A stretch of 55,553 bases of DNA from Clostridiaceae bacterium (GTDB taxonomy: Bacteria; Bacillota; Clostridia; DSM-8532), in the NCBI GenBank assembly GCA_012523705.1, contig JAAYTU010000013.1, positions 1 to 55,553 of the forward strand, written 5' to 3'. Positions 24,461 to 29,529 of this stretch are shown here, piece after piece. A program made the translations under genes and the position numbers. The notes under the pieces were generated by a model, which was given only the letters and a program-made list of their open reading frames with translations, was not told where the DNA came from and searched no databases. Numbering within the stretch: the first letter of the stretch is position 1; each line of letters opens with the position of its first letter.

Positions 24461-25903
24461 TTATATCTTATATTTATCAAGCTCTTCCACAAGGATTTCC
24501 CTTACCGTATTAGGATCGGCTTTGCCCTGTGTCTCACGCATTATTTTACCCATGAAGAAACCCACAACCTTTTGGTTACCTTCTTTATACTCGATAATAG
24601 ACTTCTCGTTTTCGTTGATTACCTTATTAACTATATCCTTCAAAAATCCTGTATCGGCAATCATACCAAGCTTATGCTCCCGGGCATATTCTTCAGGATC
24701 AACATTGTTCGTATATATCTCCTGAAGAATCTTCTTGCCGATAGTTCTGTTGACGGTCTTCTTTTCAACCATCTTAATCAGCTTACCGAGCTTTTCGTAA
24801 TCAATATCTATCTCATCAAAGGGTTTATTATCTTCATTCACGATGCTTGATAGATCCCCTAAAATCCAATTGGCTACTTCCTTCGGGTTATCTACATATT
24901 TTAAAGTGCCATCAAATATGTCAGCTATTTTCCTGCTTCCTGTAAGAAGCTTACTGTCATAATCCGATAACCCATACTCCTCAGTTAGCCGTTTATACTT
25001 TTCTTCGGCAAGCTCTGGAATAGTGGTTTTTACTTCGGCAATCCACTCATCGCTAATGTAAACAGGCATTATATCAGGGTTAGGGAAGTAGCGATAGTCA
25101 TTTGCATCTTCCTTATCGCGCATTGCATAGCTTTCACCAATATTATCATCCCAGCGTCTTGTTTCCTGTACGATTTCCTCGCATCCTGTTTCCACAGCTG
25201 TGATCTGACGCTCGGATTCATATTCAATAGCCCGTGCAATAGCCTTAAAAGAGTTTAGATTCTTCATTTCAGTCCGTGTTCCTAATTCGCTTGAACCGGC
25301 CTCTCTTACCGAAATATTTACATCACATCTCATAGAGCCTTCCTGCATCTTGCAATCAGAAACATCTGCAAAGGTGAACAGCGATTGAATCTTTTCAAGG
25401 TATGCCACAACCTCTTCAGCACTACGAAAATCTGGCTCACTTACAATCTCGATAAGAGGTACACTAGCGCGATTGTAGTCTACCAAGGATGCATCTGTCC
25501 TGTAATCGTGGACAAGTTTCCCTGCGTCCTCTTCAAGATGGATCTGTTTTATACGTATTTTCTTCTTGCCTGATTCTGTTTCAATTTCAACATAACCATT
25601 TCTGCAAATAGGCGCATATAATTGTGTATTCTGATGGCCCGTAGGTAAATCAGGATAAAAATAATTCTTTTTATCAAAGGTAATCCTGGGCGTTATCTCA
25701 CAATTTGTAACCAAGCCGGCTATTATACCAAGCTCCACAGCTCTTTTGTTTAGCGCAGGCACAAATCCAGGCATTCCCGAGCATGAAGGACATACATTCT
25801 CATTTGCTTCAGATCCAAATTTAGCCGAGCATGAGCAAAAAAGCTTCGACTCGGTTGCAAGCTCAACATGAACTTCAAGACCCATTACTACTTCATATTT
25901 CAT
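24461..25903 (-). CDS. gatB: Asp/Glu-tRNA amidotransferase subunit B
   Basis: GatB phosphorylates the misacylated Asp-tRNA(Asn) or Glu-tRNA(Gln) and completes amidation with ammonia delivered from GatA. Kinase-site motifs are kept: MGLEVHVEL, KKNYFYPD, HLEEDAGK (about residue 122) and the zinc ligands CSCS and CPSC. The tail and YqeY-like domain (about 330-480) is complete. It has 480 residues, normal. The sequence PTGHQNTQL departs from the usual YQI(S/T)Q at that place. The start ATG lies 2 bases after the gatA stop, and its RBS (GGAGG) encodes the last residues of GatA. GatB looks functional although its ammonia-supplying partner does not. Confidence 0.93.
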   Translation of the reverse strand: MKYEVVMGLEVHVELATESKLFCSCSAKFGSEANENVCPSCSGMPGFVPALNKRAVELGIIAGLVTNCEITPRITFDKKNYFYPDLPTGHQNTQLYAPICRNGYVEIETESGKKKIRIKQIHLEEDAGKLVHDYRTDASLVDYNRASVPLIEIVSEPDFRSAEEVVAYLEKIQSLFTFADVSDCKMQEGSMRCDVNISVREAGSSELGTRTEMKNLNSFKAIARAIEYESERQITAVETGCEEIVQETRRWDDNIGESYAMRDKEDANDYRYFPNPDIMPVYISDEWIAEVKTTIPELAEEKYKRLTEEYGLSDYDSKLLTGSRKIADIFDGTLKYVDNPKEVANWILGDLSSIVNEDNKPFDEIDIDYEKLGKLIKMVEKKTVNRTIGKKILQEIYTNNVDPEEYAREHKLGMIADTGFLKDIVNKVINENEKSIIEYKEGNQKVVGFFMGKIMRETQGKADPNTVREILVEELDKYKI

Positions 25904-25905
25904 GC

Positions 25906-27042
25906 TTACCTGCCTCCTTTACAAATATCAAACAATACGTTCTCATTCATGGCTTGAGAAATCAGCTGTACACCGTTATTTGAGCCAAGAGGCACAGATA
26001 ATGAGGGCAATCCACAAAGAGGAGCCAACGCATATAGTGCAAGATTGACATAGGGATCCTGACTGTCTAGTGTAAGTGGCATAGCTATTGCATCAAAGCC
26101 TTTAAACAGCTCATCGCATTGTTCCTTAATCTGACGGCGGATTTTCATTGCCTTCAAATAGAATTTTTCATAGTTTCCACTGGACAATACCATGGCTCCT
26201 ATAATGGAAGTCAGCTTCATATTAAGGCCAAATCCCTCTGTTCTTGAATTGGTATATAAATCTTTAAGGCCCTCATAGTTTTCACTGCGGTAGCCAAATT
26301 TTACTCCGTCATACCGTGAAGTATTATTGCCGATCTCGGCACTGCTTAATATATACATTACCTGTGATAGGACCTCGAAGTGTTCAAGTTCGAATTCCTC
26401 TGTATGGTATTTGGACGCCAACTCCTTAATAGCCTCTTTGCTCTTCTCATCTGTCTTATTCATTACATTTACAGGAATACCGATTGTATATTTTCCTTCC
26501 TTTAAAGGGCCTTTTGAATTCAGCGCAAGAGAACCGTCCCCTTGTGTAGTACTGTCGTTTTCATCATGACCGGCAATTACAGACAGGGTTTCAATGCCCT
26601 CATCCAAATCTCCACATACAATGCCTATCTGATCCATTGAGGATACTGTCTGAACAAGACCGAATCTGGACACAGTGCCGTAGGTGGGACGAATGTAGTA
26701 CAGGCAATTTTCTGCTGCCTGTCTGCGGACCTTTCCGAAAACGTCGTTGCACAAAGCAATCCTACAGGTTTTGTCCAAAACAGCCCCAACCACTCCCGAC
26801 AATTCATTATTATCACCTGAAACTCCCATTACAGCGAATTCATCAAGCTTGGTTTTACCTGCAAGCTCCATGCCTTTATCCAGAAGCTTTCTGACCACTG
26901 TTGCATCTATGGGCGAAATATAATTATGGAGCATCTTTGAGCCTGCTGTTGTAAGCCCGTCTTTGACCATAATATTATCTTCCAATGCAAAGGCATTATC
27001 AGCTTTCACATCGTATTTTGTAACATAATATTGATTCTTCAA
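25906..27042 (-). CDS. gatA: GatA-like protein lacking the amidase catalytic triad
   Basis: GatA normally hydrolyses glutamine with a Lys-cisSer-Ser triad and passes ammonia to GatB. The fold is recognisable here: LTTAGSKMLHNYISPIDATVV, GKTKLDEFA, RPTYGTVSRFGLV and SSMDQIG match the family. The triad is gone: the Lys of IKDN is Glu21 (LEDN), the GGSSGGS loop with the cis-Ser is replaced (VSGDNNELSGVV), and the nucleophile position of SDTGGSIRQP is Lys104 (NDVFGKVRRQ). About 70 N-terminal residues are also missing. The length is 378 against about 485. The start is taken as TTG at 27042, 8 bases after AGGGGGG. The frame is open throughout. It probably serves as a structural subunit, or this complex uses free ammonia. 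Confidence 0.85.
   Translation of the reverse strand: MKNQYYVTKYDVKADNAFALEDNIMVKDGLTTAGSKMLHNYISPIDATVVRKLLDKGMELAGKTKLDEFAVMGVSGDNNELSGVVGAVLDKTCRIALCNDVFGKVRRQAAENCLYYIRPTYGTVSRFGLVQTVSSMDQIGIVCGDLDEGIETLSVIAGHDENDSTTQGDGSLALNSKGPLKEGKYTIGIPVNVMNKTDEKSKEAIKELASKYHTEEFELEHFEVLSQVMYILSSAEIGNNTSRYDGVKFGYRSENYEGLKDLYTNSRTEGFGLNMKLTSIIGAMVLSSGNYEKFYLKAMKIRRQIKEQCDELFKGFDAIAMPLTLDSQDPYVNLALYALAPLCGLPSLSVPLGSNNGVQLISQAMNENVLFDICKGGR
26526..26556. repeat. Repeat-family copy inside the gatA coding region
   Basis: On the minus strand ACAAGGGGACGGTTCTCTTG matches the dispersed family core with short arms CAAG/CTTG. It encodes residues TQGDGSLA of the GatA-like protein, in frame, in a surface segment after DST. 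Confidence 0.6.
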
Positions 27043-27055
27043 TGAAACATCCCCC

Positions 27056-27337
27056 CTATTCAATAGTCTTTGGGACAAGGAAATAGCCATCGTATTGCTC
27101 AGGCGAATTAGCAAGTATTTCATCCCTGGAAAATGTTTTATGGGCCACATCTTCCCTAAGTGGATTTTGCACCTCTATGGGCGAAATCAATGGCTCTGTT
27201 TTGTCTGTGTCAATGCCTGATAATGCTTCGAAGCTTTTTTCAAGCATATTTGCCTGCTCAATAATCCATTCCCGTTCTGACTCAGGCAGGTCAAATTTCA
27301 CCATTTTTTCATATTGCAAAAGGTCTTTTATATCCAT
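27056..27337 (-). CDS. gatC: Asp/Glu-tRNA amidotransferase subunit C
   Basis: A small 93-residue subunit that wraps around and stabilises the GatA-GatB interface. It has the family's N-terminal helix pair (KFDLPESEREWIIEQANML) and the C-terminal segment NPLREDVAHKTFSRDEIL with the nearly invariant LREDV. RBS GGGAGG before the ATG. It is the first of the gatCAB genes after aspS, and the GatA-like start follows its stop by 13 bases. It looks intact, which argues that the complex is still assembled. Confidence 0.94.
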   Translation of the reverse strand: MDIKDLLQYEKMVKFDLPESEREWIIEQANMLEKSFEALSGIDTDKTEPLISPIEVQNPLREDVAHKTFSRDEILANSPEQYDGYFLVPKTIE

Positions 27338-27450: not shown

Positions 27451-29190
27451 TTATCTAATCTTTATGTGAACCTCCCTAAGCTGCTGCTCTGTAACAGCAC
27501 CCGGTGCCCCCAGCAGTAAATCCTGTGCATTGCTGTTCATTGGGAAGGCCACTACCTCTCTTATGCTGTCCTGCTCTGTGAGCAGCATTACAATTCTGTC
27601 AAGACCGGGGGCCATACCTGCGTGGGGAGGAGCTCCATAATGGAAAGCATTATACAATGCTGAGAATTTCTCCTCTATCTCATTCTTGCTATAGCCTGCA
27701 ATTTCAAAGGCTTTTACCATGACCTCGGGCTTGTGATTACGTACTGCTCCCGATGAAAGCTCAACCCCGTTACAAACAATATCATATTGGTAAGCCTTTA
27801 TATCTAAAGGATTCATGTTTTCTAAAGCTTCCATTTCACCCTGGGGCATTGAAAAGGGATTGTGTGTAAACTCTATTTTATTGGTTTCTTCGCTAATTCC
27901 GAACATCGGGAAATCTACTATAAAGCACATCTCGTATCTGGATTTGTCTATCAGCTCGAGACGATTTCCGAGCTCTGTACGAATCTGCCCTGCCAATTTA
28001 TCAACCAACTTTGGAACATCGGATATGAAGAACAAGGTATCATTTTCTTTTAAAGAGAGCATTTCAATCAGCTCTTTTTGCTTTTCTTCAGAAAGGAACT
28101 TAACAATAGGGCCTTTAAGCTCCATTCCGCTTAATATTGAAATATATCCTAATCCCTTCATTCCAATCTCAGTCGCAAAGGCCAACATCTTTTCAAAGAA
28201 TGATTTAGGTCTGGTAGCACATTGAGGAGCTACAATTCCTCTGACAGGCTTATTCTTAAAGGGCATGAAATCAACATCTTTAAAGAAGTCACTTAAATCT
28301 TCAATTATAAGGGGATTTCTTAAATCCGGCTTATCAGTGCCATATTTCAGCATGCTCTCAGCGTAAGTAATCCGTTTAAAGGGGGCAGGACTTACATATT
28401 TATCGGAGAAATGAGCAAATGTGTCATATAAAACCTTCTCCGCAACCTCAAGAACATCCTCTTGGGTAGCAAAAGCCATTTCAAAGTCTAGCTGATAAAA
28501 TTCACCTGGAGATCTGTCGGCTCTGGCATCCTCATCACGGAAACAAGGAGCTATCTGAAAATACTTGTCGAAGCCTGATACCATCAACAACTGTTTAAAC
28601 TGCTGTGGCGCCTGAGGCAGAGCATAAAACATACCCTTATGCTTTCTGCTGGGAACAAGATAGTCCCGGGCACCTTCAGGAGAGGAGGATGTTAGTATAG
28701 GTGTCTGTATTTCGAGAAAACCCAGCTCCTCCATCTTTGTTCTTAAAAAACTGGTTATTTTAGAACGCATTACAATATTATTATGCACCTTGGGATTTCT
28801 AAGGTCCAAAAATCTATATTTCAGACGTACATCCTCCCTGGTCTGCTCCGAAGAGTCCACCTCAAAGGGGAGCTGACGAATAGAGCGGCCAAGGACTTGC
28901 ATACTCTCAACCTTAACCTCAATTTCACCCGTGGCTATTTTAGGGTTGATGGTTTCTTCATCCCTTTGATGCAAAACTCCTTCAACTGAAATAACAGTTT
29001 CACGACCAAGGTTATCAATAAGCTCTGAGTTATCAAATACAATTTGAGTTACGCCGTAGTGATCCCGTAAATCTACAAAAATTACTCCGCCATGATCCCG
29101 TATAGTATCAATCCAGCCTGATAATCTTACTTTCTGGTTCAAATGAATCTTTCTCAGTTCTCCACAATTATGTGTTCTGTAAATGTTCAT
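27451..29190 (-). CDS. aspS: Aspartyl-tRNA synthetase, bacterial type
   Basis: Charges tRNA(Asp), and in organisms without AsnRS also tRNA(Asn), with aspartate. An N-terminal OB fold (residues 1-105) is followed by class II motifs: motif 2 region CFRDEDARADRSPGEFYQLD, the bacterial-type GAD insertion (about 280-420) and motif 3 GLDRIVMLLT near the end. It has 579 residues, normal. The gene heads the aspS-gatC-gatA-gatB operon and is preceded by a T-box leader. Co-transcription with gatCAB suggests a non-discriminating enzyme feeding Asp-tRNA(Asn) to the amidotransferase. Whether an AsnRS exists elsewhere is not visible here. Confidence 0.95.
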   Translation of the reverse strand: MNIYRTHNCGELRKIHLNQKVRLSGWIDTIRDHGGVIFVDLRDHYGVTQIVFDNSELIDNLGRETVISVEGVLHQRDEETINPKIATGEIEVKVESMQVLGRSIRQLPFEVDSSEQTREDVRLKYRFLDLRNPKVHNNIVMRSKITSFLRTKMEELGFLEIQTPILTSSSPEGARDYLVPSRKHKGMFYALPQAPQQFKQLLMVSGFDKYFQIAPCFRDEDARADRSPGEFYQLDFEMAFATQEDVLEVAEKVLYDTFAHFSDKYVSPAPFKRITYAESMLKYGTDKPDLRNPLIIEDLSDFFKDVDFMPFKNKPVRGIVAPQCATRPKSFFEKMLAFATEIGMKGLGYISILSGMELKGPIVKFLSEEKQKELIEMLSLKENDTLFFISDVPKLVDKLAGQIRTELGNRLELIDKSRYEMCFIVDFPMFGISEETNKIEFTHNPFSMPQGEMEALENMNPLDIKAYQYDIVCNGVELSSGAVRNHKPEVMVKAFEIAGYSKNEIEEKFSALYNAFHYGAPPHAGMAPGLDRIVMLLTEQDSIREVVAFPMNSNAQDLLLGAPGAVTEQQLREVHIKIR

Positions 29191-29221
29191 ACCTTATCAC
29201 CTTTCGTGGTTATTTAAAAAA

Positions 29222-29253
29222 GCCCCTCAAAAACAAATATGTTTCTGAGGGGC
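29222..29253 (-). terminator. T-box-controlled terminator of aspS-gatCAB
   Basis: A 12-bp stem built on CCCCTCA/TGAGGGG is followed by a run of six Ts on the minus strand, 32 bases before the aspS ATG. Confidence 0.88.
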
Positions 29254-29494
29254 GAGATTTTTTCCCGCGGTGCCACCCACATTGGTGTTAATAATTCATC
29301 TATTAATAACACCCACTTATTTATTAATCTGTAAACATATCAAATAGTGTTCCCAAAACCTACTACTCACCCAAGCAAAACTTACAGCCTGTGATTTTGC
29401 CTCTCTGTTGGACTTTCCAAAAAGGTCGAGTCTATTTGATCCATCCTGCCTTGTCTCATGGCTTAAGCGCATTTCACACTATCCGGCAAGATTA
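29222..29494 (-). promoter_or_regulatory. T-box leader of aspS-gatCAB with GAAC in the specifier region
   Basis: On the minus strand the T-box sequence GGGTGGCACCGCGG (29278-29265) can pair as antiterminator. A strong terminator follows (29253-29222: CCCCTCAGAAAC / GTTTTTGAGGGG, then TTTTTT). Stem I is closed by ATCAAATAG (29440-29432) with CTATTTGAT (29347-29339). AGAGAG and the distal hairpin GCAAAA/TTTTGC lie inside it. On the 3' side the specifier region reads GGGAACAC (29354-29347): AAC (Asn) is followed by the expected purine, and GAA (Glu) overlaps it by one base shift. Aspartate GAC is not seen at this place. Uncharged tRNA would allow read-through into the operon. Confidence 0.88.
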
Positions 29495-29500
29495 TAAATA

Positions 29501-29529
29501 ATATTATAATATACAAAATATTTTGTCAA
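29501..29529 (-). promoter_or_regulatory. Sigma-A promoter of the T-box operon
   Basis: A perfect TTGACA (29529-29524) and TAATAT (29506-29501) are spaced by 17 bases on the minus strand. The -35 box starts 2 bases after the efp stop codon. Confidence 0.8.

Follow-up and report, generated by a model that had tools for sequence, protein, structure and literature searches.

A GatCAB operon with a glutaminase-less GatA, a second aspartyl-tRNA synthetase and an asparagine-type T-box leader: a probable ammonia-dependent amidotransferase in Clostridia

By definition, GatCAB is regarded as an enzyme that depends on glutamine, and where its genes occur, annotation pipelines and pathway models assume amidation driven by glutamine. 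What is the biological role of a GatCAB whose GatA subunit has lost its glutaminase residues? Such an operon is located in the window, a 55,553-nucleotide stretch of DNA that makes up an entire contig in a 1.94 Mb clostridial draft genome (completeness 99.7%). The window encodes all three subunits, GatC, GatA and GatB, together, and the gene order on the minus strand is aspS2, gatC, gatA*, gatB, separated by 113, 13 and 2 nt, where the asterisk marks the pseudo-glutaminase GatA and its partner GatB. We propose that the operon specifies an Asp-tRNA(Asn) amidotransferase system that would use ammonia as the amide donor and GatA* as a scaffold, a reading to which we assign a probability of roughly 0.7. 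The locus contains the following features.

24461..25903, minus strand: gatB*, with an intact ATP/Mg site (NF004012, 628 bits; residue tables)
25906..27042, minus strand: gatA*, pseudo-glutaminase GatA of 378 aa with a TTG start (PF01425; TIGR00132)
27056..27337, minus strand: gatC (TIGR00135, 68.7 bits, above cut-off)
27451..29190, minus strand: aspS2, a second AspRS of apparently non-discriminating type, with RDHGGVIF (NF001750/TIGR00459; His where E. coli has Leu30)
29216..29252, minus strand: putative intrinsic terminator, CCCCTCAGAAAC...GTTTTTGAGGGGCTTTTTT (read in the sequence)
29245..29452, minus strand: T-box leader RNA (tRNA-sensing) between efp and aspS2 (RF00230, 50.3 bits, E 2.6e-10)
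29265..29278, minus strand: T-box motif GGGTGGCACCGCGG, which pairs with the tRNA acceptor end (perfect motif)
29349..29351, minus strand: AAC (Asn) specifier, with a purine and then a basal stem of 9 bp after it, ATCAAATAG/CTATTTGAT (stem and alignment)
29503..29529, minus strand: putative sigma-A-like promoter ahead of the T-box leader, TTGACA-15-TATAAT (read in the sequence; its position suits the leader)

Catalytic residues and fold of GatA*

The gatA* frame is open over 378 codons and starts with TTG behind a clear ribosome-binding site. Inspection of the reading frame thus bears out the preliminary description, which had reported an uninterrupted gatA* flanked by intact and closely coupled gatC and gatB genes. 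In an alignment with S. aureus GatA (2df4), Lys79 is replaced by Glu21 and Ser178 by Lys104, and the GGSSGGS loop that carries cis-Ser154 (2df4 numbering) is deleted, confirming the loss of all three catalytic residues that had been claimed. Arg358 and Asp425 (2df4 numbering) are likewise gone; the equivalent yeast residues, R334 and D418, bind glutamine as substrate (PMC4027206). All five residues (K79, S154, S178, R358 and D425) are lost in each of the nine pseudo-GatA members that were aligned. The N-terminal truncation, first put at about 70 residues, amounts instead to about 51-58 residues, given that Aquifex residue 69 corresponds to residue 18 of GatA* and S. aureus residue 77 to residue 19.

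GatA* matches PF01425 at 169.5 bits and the GatA equivalog model TIGR00132 at 250 bits, below the curated cut-off of 481.1. The best PDB matches of its AlphaFold2 model (pLDDT 74, pTM 0.80) in Foldseek are GatA chains, with a TM-score of about 0.84 over the query, and on this model GatA* is predicted still to have the GatA, amidase-signature fold. Searches of the window genome with three different queries retrieved GatA* as the only amidase-signature protein and found no second GatCAB with an intact triad, a possibility that the preliminary description had raised. A literature search for a glutaminase-dead GatA found none.

Asparagine signals and asparagine supply

The T-box leader matches RF00230 over the full model, and its 50.3 bits lie below the Rfam gathering score of 93, whereas the leaders of relatives with an intact GatA score 102-107 bits. 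An Rfam search of the window at the gathering threshold returned no T-box, but a sensitive search of the aspS2 leader found one; the negative at the gathering threshold is misleading. The T-box motif is present in all 11 aligned leaders (the window and ten relatives), as is an invariant AAC, an asparagine codon, with a purine after it. A crude stem-scoring script ranked AAC first in 4 of 17 leaders, the window's among them, and the specifier assignment is drawn from the basal stem of the window and the fact that AAC never varies across the aligned leaders. In a survey of T-boxes, the specifier always agrees with the amino acid of the ligase (PMC2494555), and an aspartyl synthetase under an Asn specifier is expected if AspRS2 charges tRNA(Asn). 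An aspS2 with an Asn-type T-box leader is also found in G013 without gatCAB behind it (L140:4684-6549, minus strand).

AspRS2 contains RDHGGVIF, as in known non-discriminating AspRS enzymes, whereas the housekeeping AspRS1 contains RRRDLGALIF, as in the discriminating E. coli enzyme. At the position of E. coli Leu30, AspRS2 has His, as do the non-discriminating enzymes of P. aeruginosa and M. tuberculosis. The second determinant, at E. coli Lys81, is Glu or Asp in AspRS2; this matches neither the Lys of the discriminating enzyme nor the Gly of known non-discriminating enzymes and so gives no information on the type. From these motifs, AspRS2 appears to be of the non-discriminating type and would charge tRNA(Asn) with aspartate. 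In four operons of a second pseudo-GatA clade (see below), AspRS2 is fused to GatC, the same joining as in the bifunctional AspRS-GatC of NF009460 / PRK12820; in the window the two are separate genes, and the NCBIfam model is silent on the state of GatA. GatCAB requires the tRNA pair U1-A72 (PMC4206432). This pair is present in a tRNA-Asn(GTT) gene that stands next to one second-clade aspS2-gatC-gatA-gatB operon in divergent orientation (L221:380-455, minus strand); the operon itself lacks a T-box motif of the standard form.

What other sources of asparagine does the organism have? The genes asnS and glnS, to which the preliminary description had pointed, are both present in the window genome, which by sequence encodes AsnRS, GlnRS and GluRS. 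AsnA was not found there by searches whose loose first filter, used for all gene absences reported here, is able to miss genes. In the sole AsnB homologue, Ser replaces Cys1 and SGGLDS reads SGGLYS; AsnB was rejected as a rival asparagine source, since this homologue is a degenerate paralogue family-wide. With no AsnA and only a broken AsnB, AspRS2 and GatCA*B would provide the only recognizable asparagine route unless the organism is an auxotroph. The gene for the AsnB-like protein, on contig C62 (L141:2882-4711, minus strand), has ispG and a spoIIGA-like gene as neighbours; across about 18 family genomes the protein has Ser, Ala or Pro at Cys1 and a broken SGGLDS motif, and it seems to be a conserved pseudo-asparagine synthetase. 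Among other GatA* genomes, G004 has AsnA, G011 has AsnA and a true AsnB, and G019 and G020 have a true AsnB, so that the operon is not the only asparagine route of these relatives. Neither GluRS nor GlnRS was detected in G019 and G020, an implausible result that deprives the GlnRS absence there of any weight. In G029 (99% complete), neither GatA nor GlnRS was found, which reflects either a search miss or Gln-tRNA made in another way.

GatB* and the source of the amide group

GatB* retains Glu10, His12, Glu124, Glu125 and Glu150 (S. aureus numbering), the ATP/Mg residues that were checked, and also Lys79. Lys88, which is usually taken, from S. aureus and H. pylori work, to be part of the ammonia tunnel at its GatB end, is replaced by Thr, Ala or Cys in all 20 GatB* copies from both pseudo-GatA clades (Thr in the window). 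The same 20 copies share the changes Arg78 to Lys, Ser93 to Thr, Arg120 to Gln and Gly145 to Ser (S. aureus numbering). Lys88, Arg78, Arg120 and Gly145 are kept in S. aureus and in 13 canonical GatBs of the window's bacterial family, one of which also has Thr93; two outlying canonical rows have Arg88 (L211) and Ser88 (L139). In the GatB tree, each pseudo-GatA clade is monophyletic (98/97 and 99/97) and the branch that joins them has moderate support (87/69). That both clades share these substitutions speaks for their common origin.

Under the proposed mechanism, accumulation of uncharged tRNA(Asn) would cause the T-box to let transcription proceed, and the non-discriminating AspRS2 would load aspartate onto tRNA(Asn). 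GatB* would then phosphorylate the aspartyl group with ATP and amidate it with free ammonia. The amidase fold of GatA* would be kept solely as a scaffold that maintains, together with GatC, the shape of GatB* in a predicted GatCA*B complex. Ammonia use is the best-supported reading because an Asn T-box and a non-discriminating-type AspRS2 occur together with a GatB that keeps its catalytic residues and has lost Lys88, in a genome with no other recognizable asparagine synthetase. The earlier suggestion of selection for a structural subunit, or for a GatCAB that uses free ammonia, thus stands as the best explanation, with ammonia being the donor that we infer. Two precedents fit this reading. 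In yeast GatFAB, disturbance of the glutaminase site lowers the Gln-dependent activity and raises the NH4Cl-dependent activity (PMC4027206). CPS1 has lost the glutaminase Cys and part of the ancestral tunnel and uses external free ammonia (PMC4655335); its glutaminase domain without a nucleophile is kept as structure, as proposed for GatA*, although its fold (a class I amidotransferase domain) and pathway are unrelated, so that the analogy is one of working and not of kinship.

The operon resembles the bacterial systems of GatCAB and non-discriminating AspRS in S. aureus, P. aeruginosa and Bdellovibrio in its gatC, gatA and gatB genes, its AspRS type and its GatB kinase/amidase site. In Bdellovibrio, AspRS and GatCAB with a normal GatA form an asparagine route, and this tRNA-dependent formation exists beside AsnRS and GlnRS, as in the window genome (PMC4206432). 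Unlike canonical GatCAB, the window system lacks the GatA triad, the cis-Ser loop, the glutamine-binding residues and GatB Lys88, and its donor is presumably ammonia. AsnA likewise forms the asparagine amide from ammonia, but its substrate is free aspartate and it involves neither tRNA nor GatA, GatB or GatC. In the summary of Saad et al. (2012) that is given in PMC4206432, Clostridium acetobutylicum also has an extra AspRS, an extra GatCAB and T-box control of tRNA-dependent amidation, along with a split, apparently non-functional AsnB that recalls the broken AsnB-like protein here. In our analysis, however, the related operons with aspS2 and an intact GatA (G009, G015, G026, G027 and G030) form a separate GatB branch in which Lys88 is kept.

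Could the ammonia be delivered to GatB* in trans by a glutaminase or asparaginase, with GatA* as a scaffold and an indirect dependence on an amide donor? Separate glutaminase subunits occur in other amidotransferases, and the loss of Lys88 suggests that the ammonia entry path was rebuilt. However, the operons share no extra gene, their neighbours vary among genomes, and in seven of the nine first-clade genomes checked, the window genome included, no amidase-family protein other than GatA* was found (an intact GatA is additionally present in G011 and in the L136 genome). We therefore consider delivery in trans unlikely.

The loss of Lys88 could also be read as a loss of amidation itself. GatCA*B would then bind or phosphorylate Asp-tRNA(Asn) for quality control, or hold AspRS2 in a complex; the combined loss of the glutaminase and of Lys88 fits this idea, as does the presence of AsnRS for direct charging. 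Against it, the complete GatB ATP/Mg site is conserved, and the window genome has no other recognizable asparagine synthetase. Moreover, the operon responds to uncharged tRNA(Asn), and a misacylating AspRS under asparagine starvation is sensible only if its product is amidated. A non-amidating complex is accordingly quite improbable in our estimate.

If ammonia-dependent amidation is correct, the two half-reactions would have come apart naturally in a lineage without glutaminase, with a remodelled GatB and Asn T-box control. Such a lineage would make ammonia entry into GatB directly testable, would parallel the evolution of CPS1, and would tie the asparagine supply of gut and digester bacteria to the ammonia around them.

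Spread of GatA* and other glutaminase losses

The same pseudo-GatA is found in ten further genomes, mostly at 42-68% identity. Four belong to the window's family and carry it in the same operon; GatA* of G004 and G011 is 67-68% identical to that of the window, and GatA* of G019 and G020, from another genus, 48-49%. Named relatives (35-47% identity) are labelled Lachnospiraceae, Oscillospiraceae or Bacillota. Each member genome is at draft stage, and those with names were all binned from metagenomes. A class-wide survey of 391 Clostridia genomes added two more (G342 and G083) and revealed a second clade of GatAs of about 396 aa in ten genomes from six families, in which Lys79 is replaced by Asp or Glu, the loop is gone, and Thr, Ala, Ser or Phe occupies the Ser178 position. 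The second clade is related to the first and distributed across Clostridia. Neither this spread nor the Asn-type T-box ahead of the whole operon was part of the preliminary description. Every pseudo-GatA but one is located behind an aspS2. The exception, from a termite gut (L137:3983-5116), contains recurring stretches of NDKGQMTNDKGQ that look like in-frame insertions of a short repeat element, and the gatC there has no adjacent aspS2.

The dN/dS of gatA* in two independent pairs of relatives is 0.109 (G004-G011) and 0.130 (G019-G020) by NG86, and 0.150 and 0.147, respectively, by YN00; gatB of the same pairs gives 0.05-0.06. These values, together with orthologues that share the losses and gene order across genera and families, show selection rather than decay, in line with the earlier view. 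Relatives carry a similarly degenerate GatA at this locus, and the intact copies lie in other operons, which is not the pattern of intact relatives and a neutrally drifting window gene that would speak against selection. Sequencing error and pseudogene status are ruled out by identical losses in independent genomes and the low dN/dS. Slow decay of a relic in organisms with both AsnRS and GlnRS, to which the repeat-like inserts and missing aspS2 of the termite-gut copy might be added, has next to no credibility. Conservation has largely refuted it: dN/dS values are 0.11-0.15, the frames stay open at 42-68% identity in different genera and families, the gene order does not change, and clade-specific residues are conserved in both GatA* and GatB*. 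The operon family is a widespread variant of GatCAB transamidation that is regulated by asparagine tRNA and probably dependent on ammonia.

In addition to the GatA* lineage, catalytic residues are missing from full-length GatAs at ordinary gatCAB loci of the window's family, namely L019 (G024), L022 (G025), L023 (G010), L026 (G023) and L029 (G006). The changes include Lys79 to Asn with Ser178 to Asp, Ser178 to Glu, Ser178 to Gly, and Lys79 to Ala or Ser, and apparently represent independent glutaminase losses. The GatBs checked alongside altered ordinary GatAs (G006, G010, G014, G023, G024 and G025) keep Lys88. In G023 and G025, GluRS was found and GlnRS was not detected by the loose-filter search; if GlnRS is truly absent there, the glutaminase-dead GatCAB must make Gln-tRNA, which we regard as a lead. 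Taken further, glutaminase-free tRNA amidation may be widespread and recurrent in anaerobic Clostridia, comprising an ancient lineage of Asn-T-box AspRS2-GatCA*B operons whose GatB tunnel was rebuilt, together with repeated point losses in ordinary GatA, including species without detectable GlnRS. We advance this broader picture tentatively, at clearly less than even odds. If it is true, protein Gln and Asn would be made on tRNA from environmental ammonia.

Two further loci show partial changes. A Solobacterium GatA behind an aspS-like gene (L139:2158-3609) keeps its Ser residues, has Glu for Lys79 and is paired with a GatB that is also altered (Ser88), which may mark a further stage on the way to losing the glutaminase. 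In one genus (G014, G015 and G016), gatA-gatB copies occur in tandem (L048:2626-8999), and one GatA has lost Lys79 (Ser or Asn) while the other is intact.
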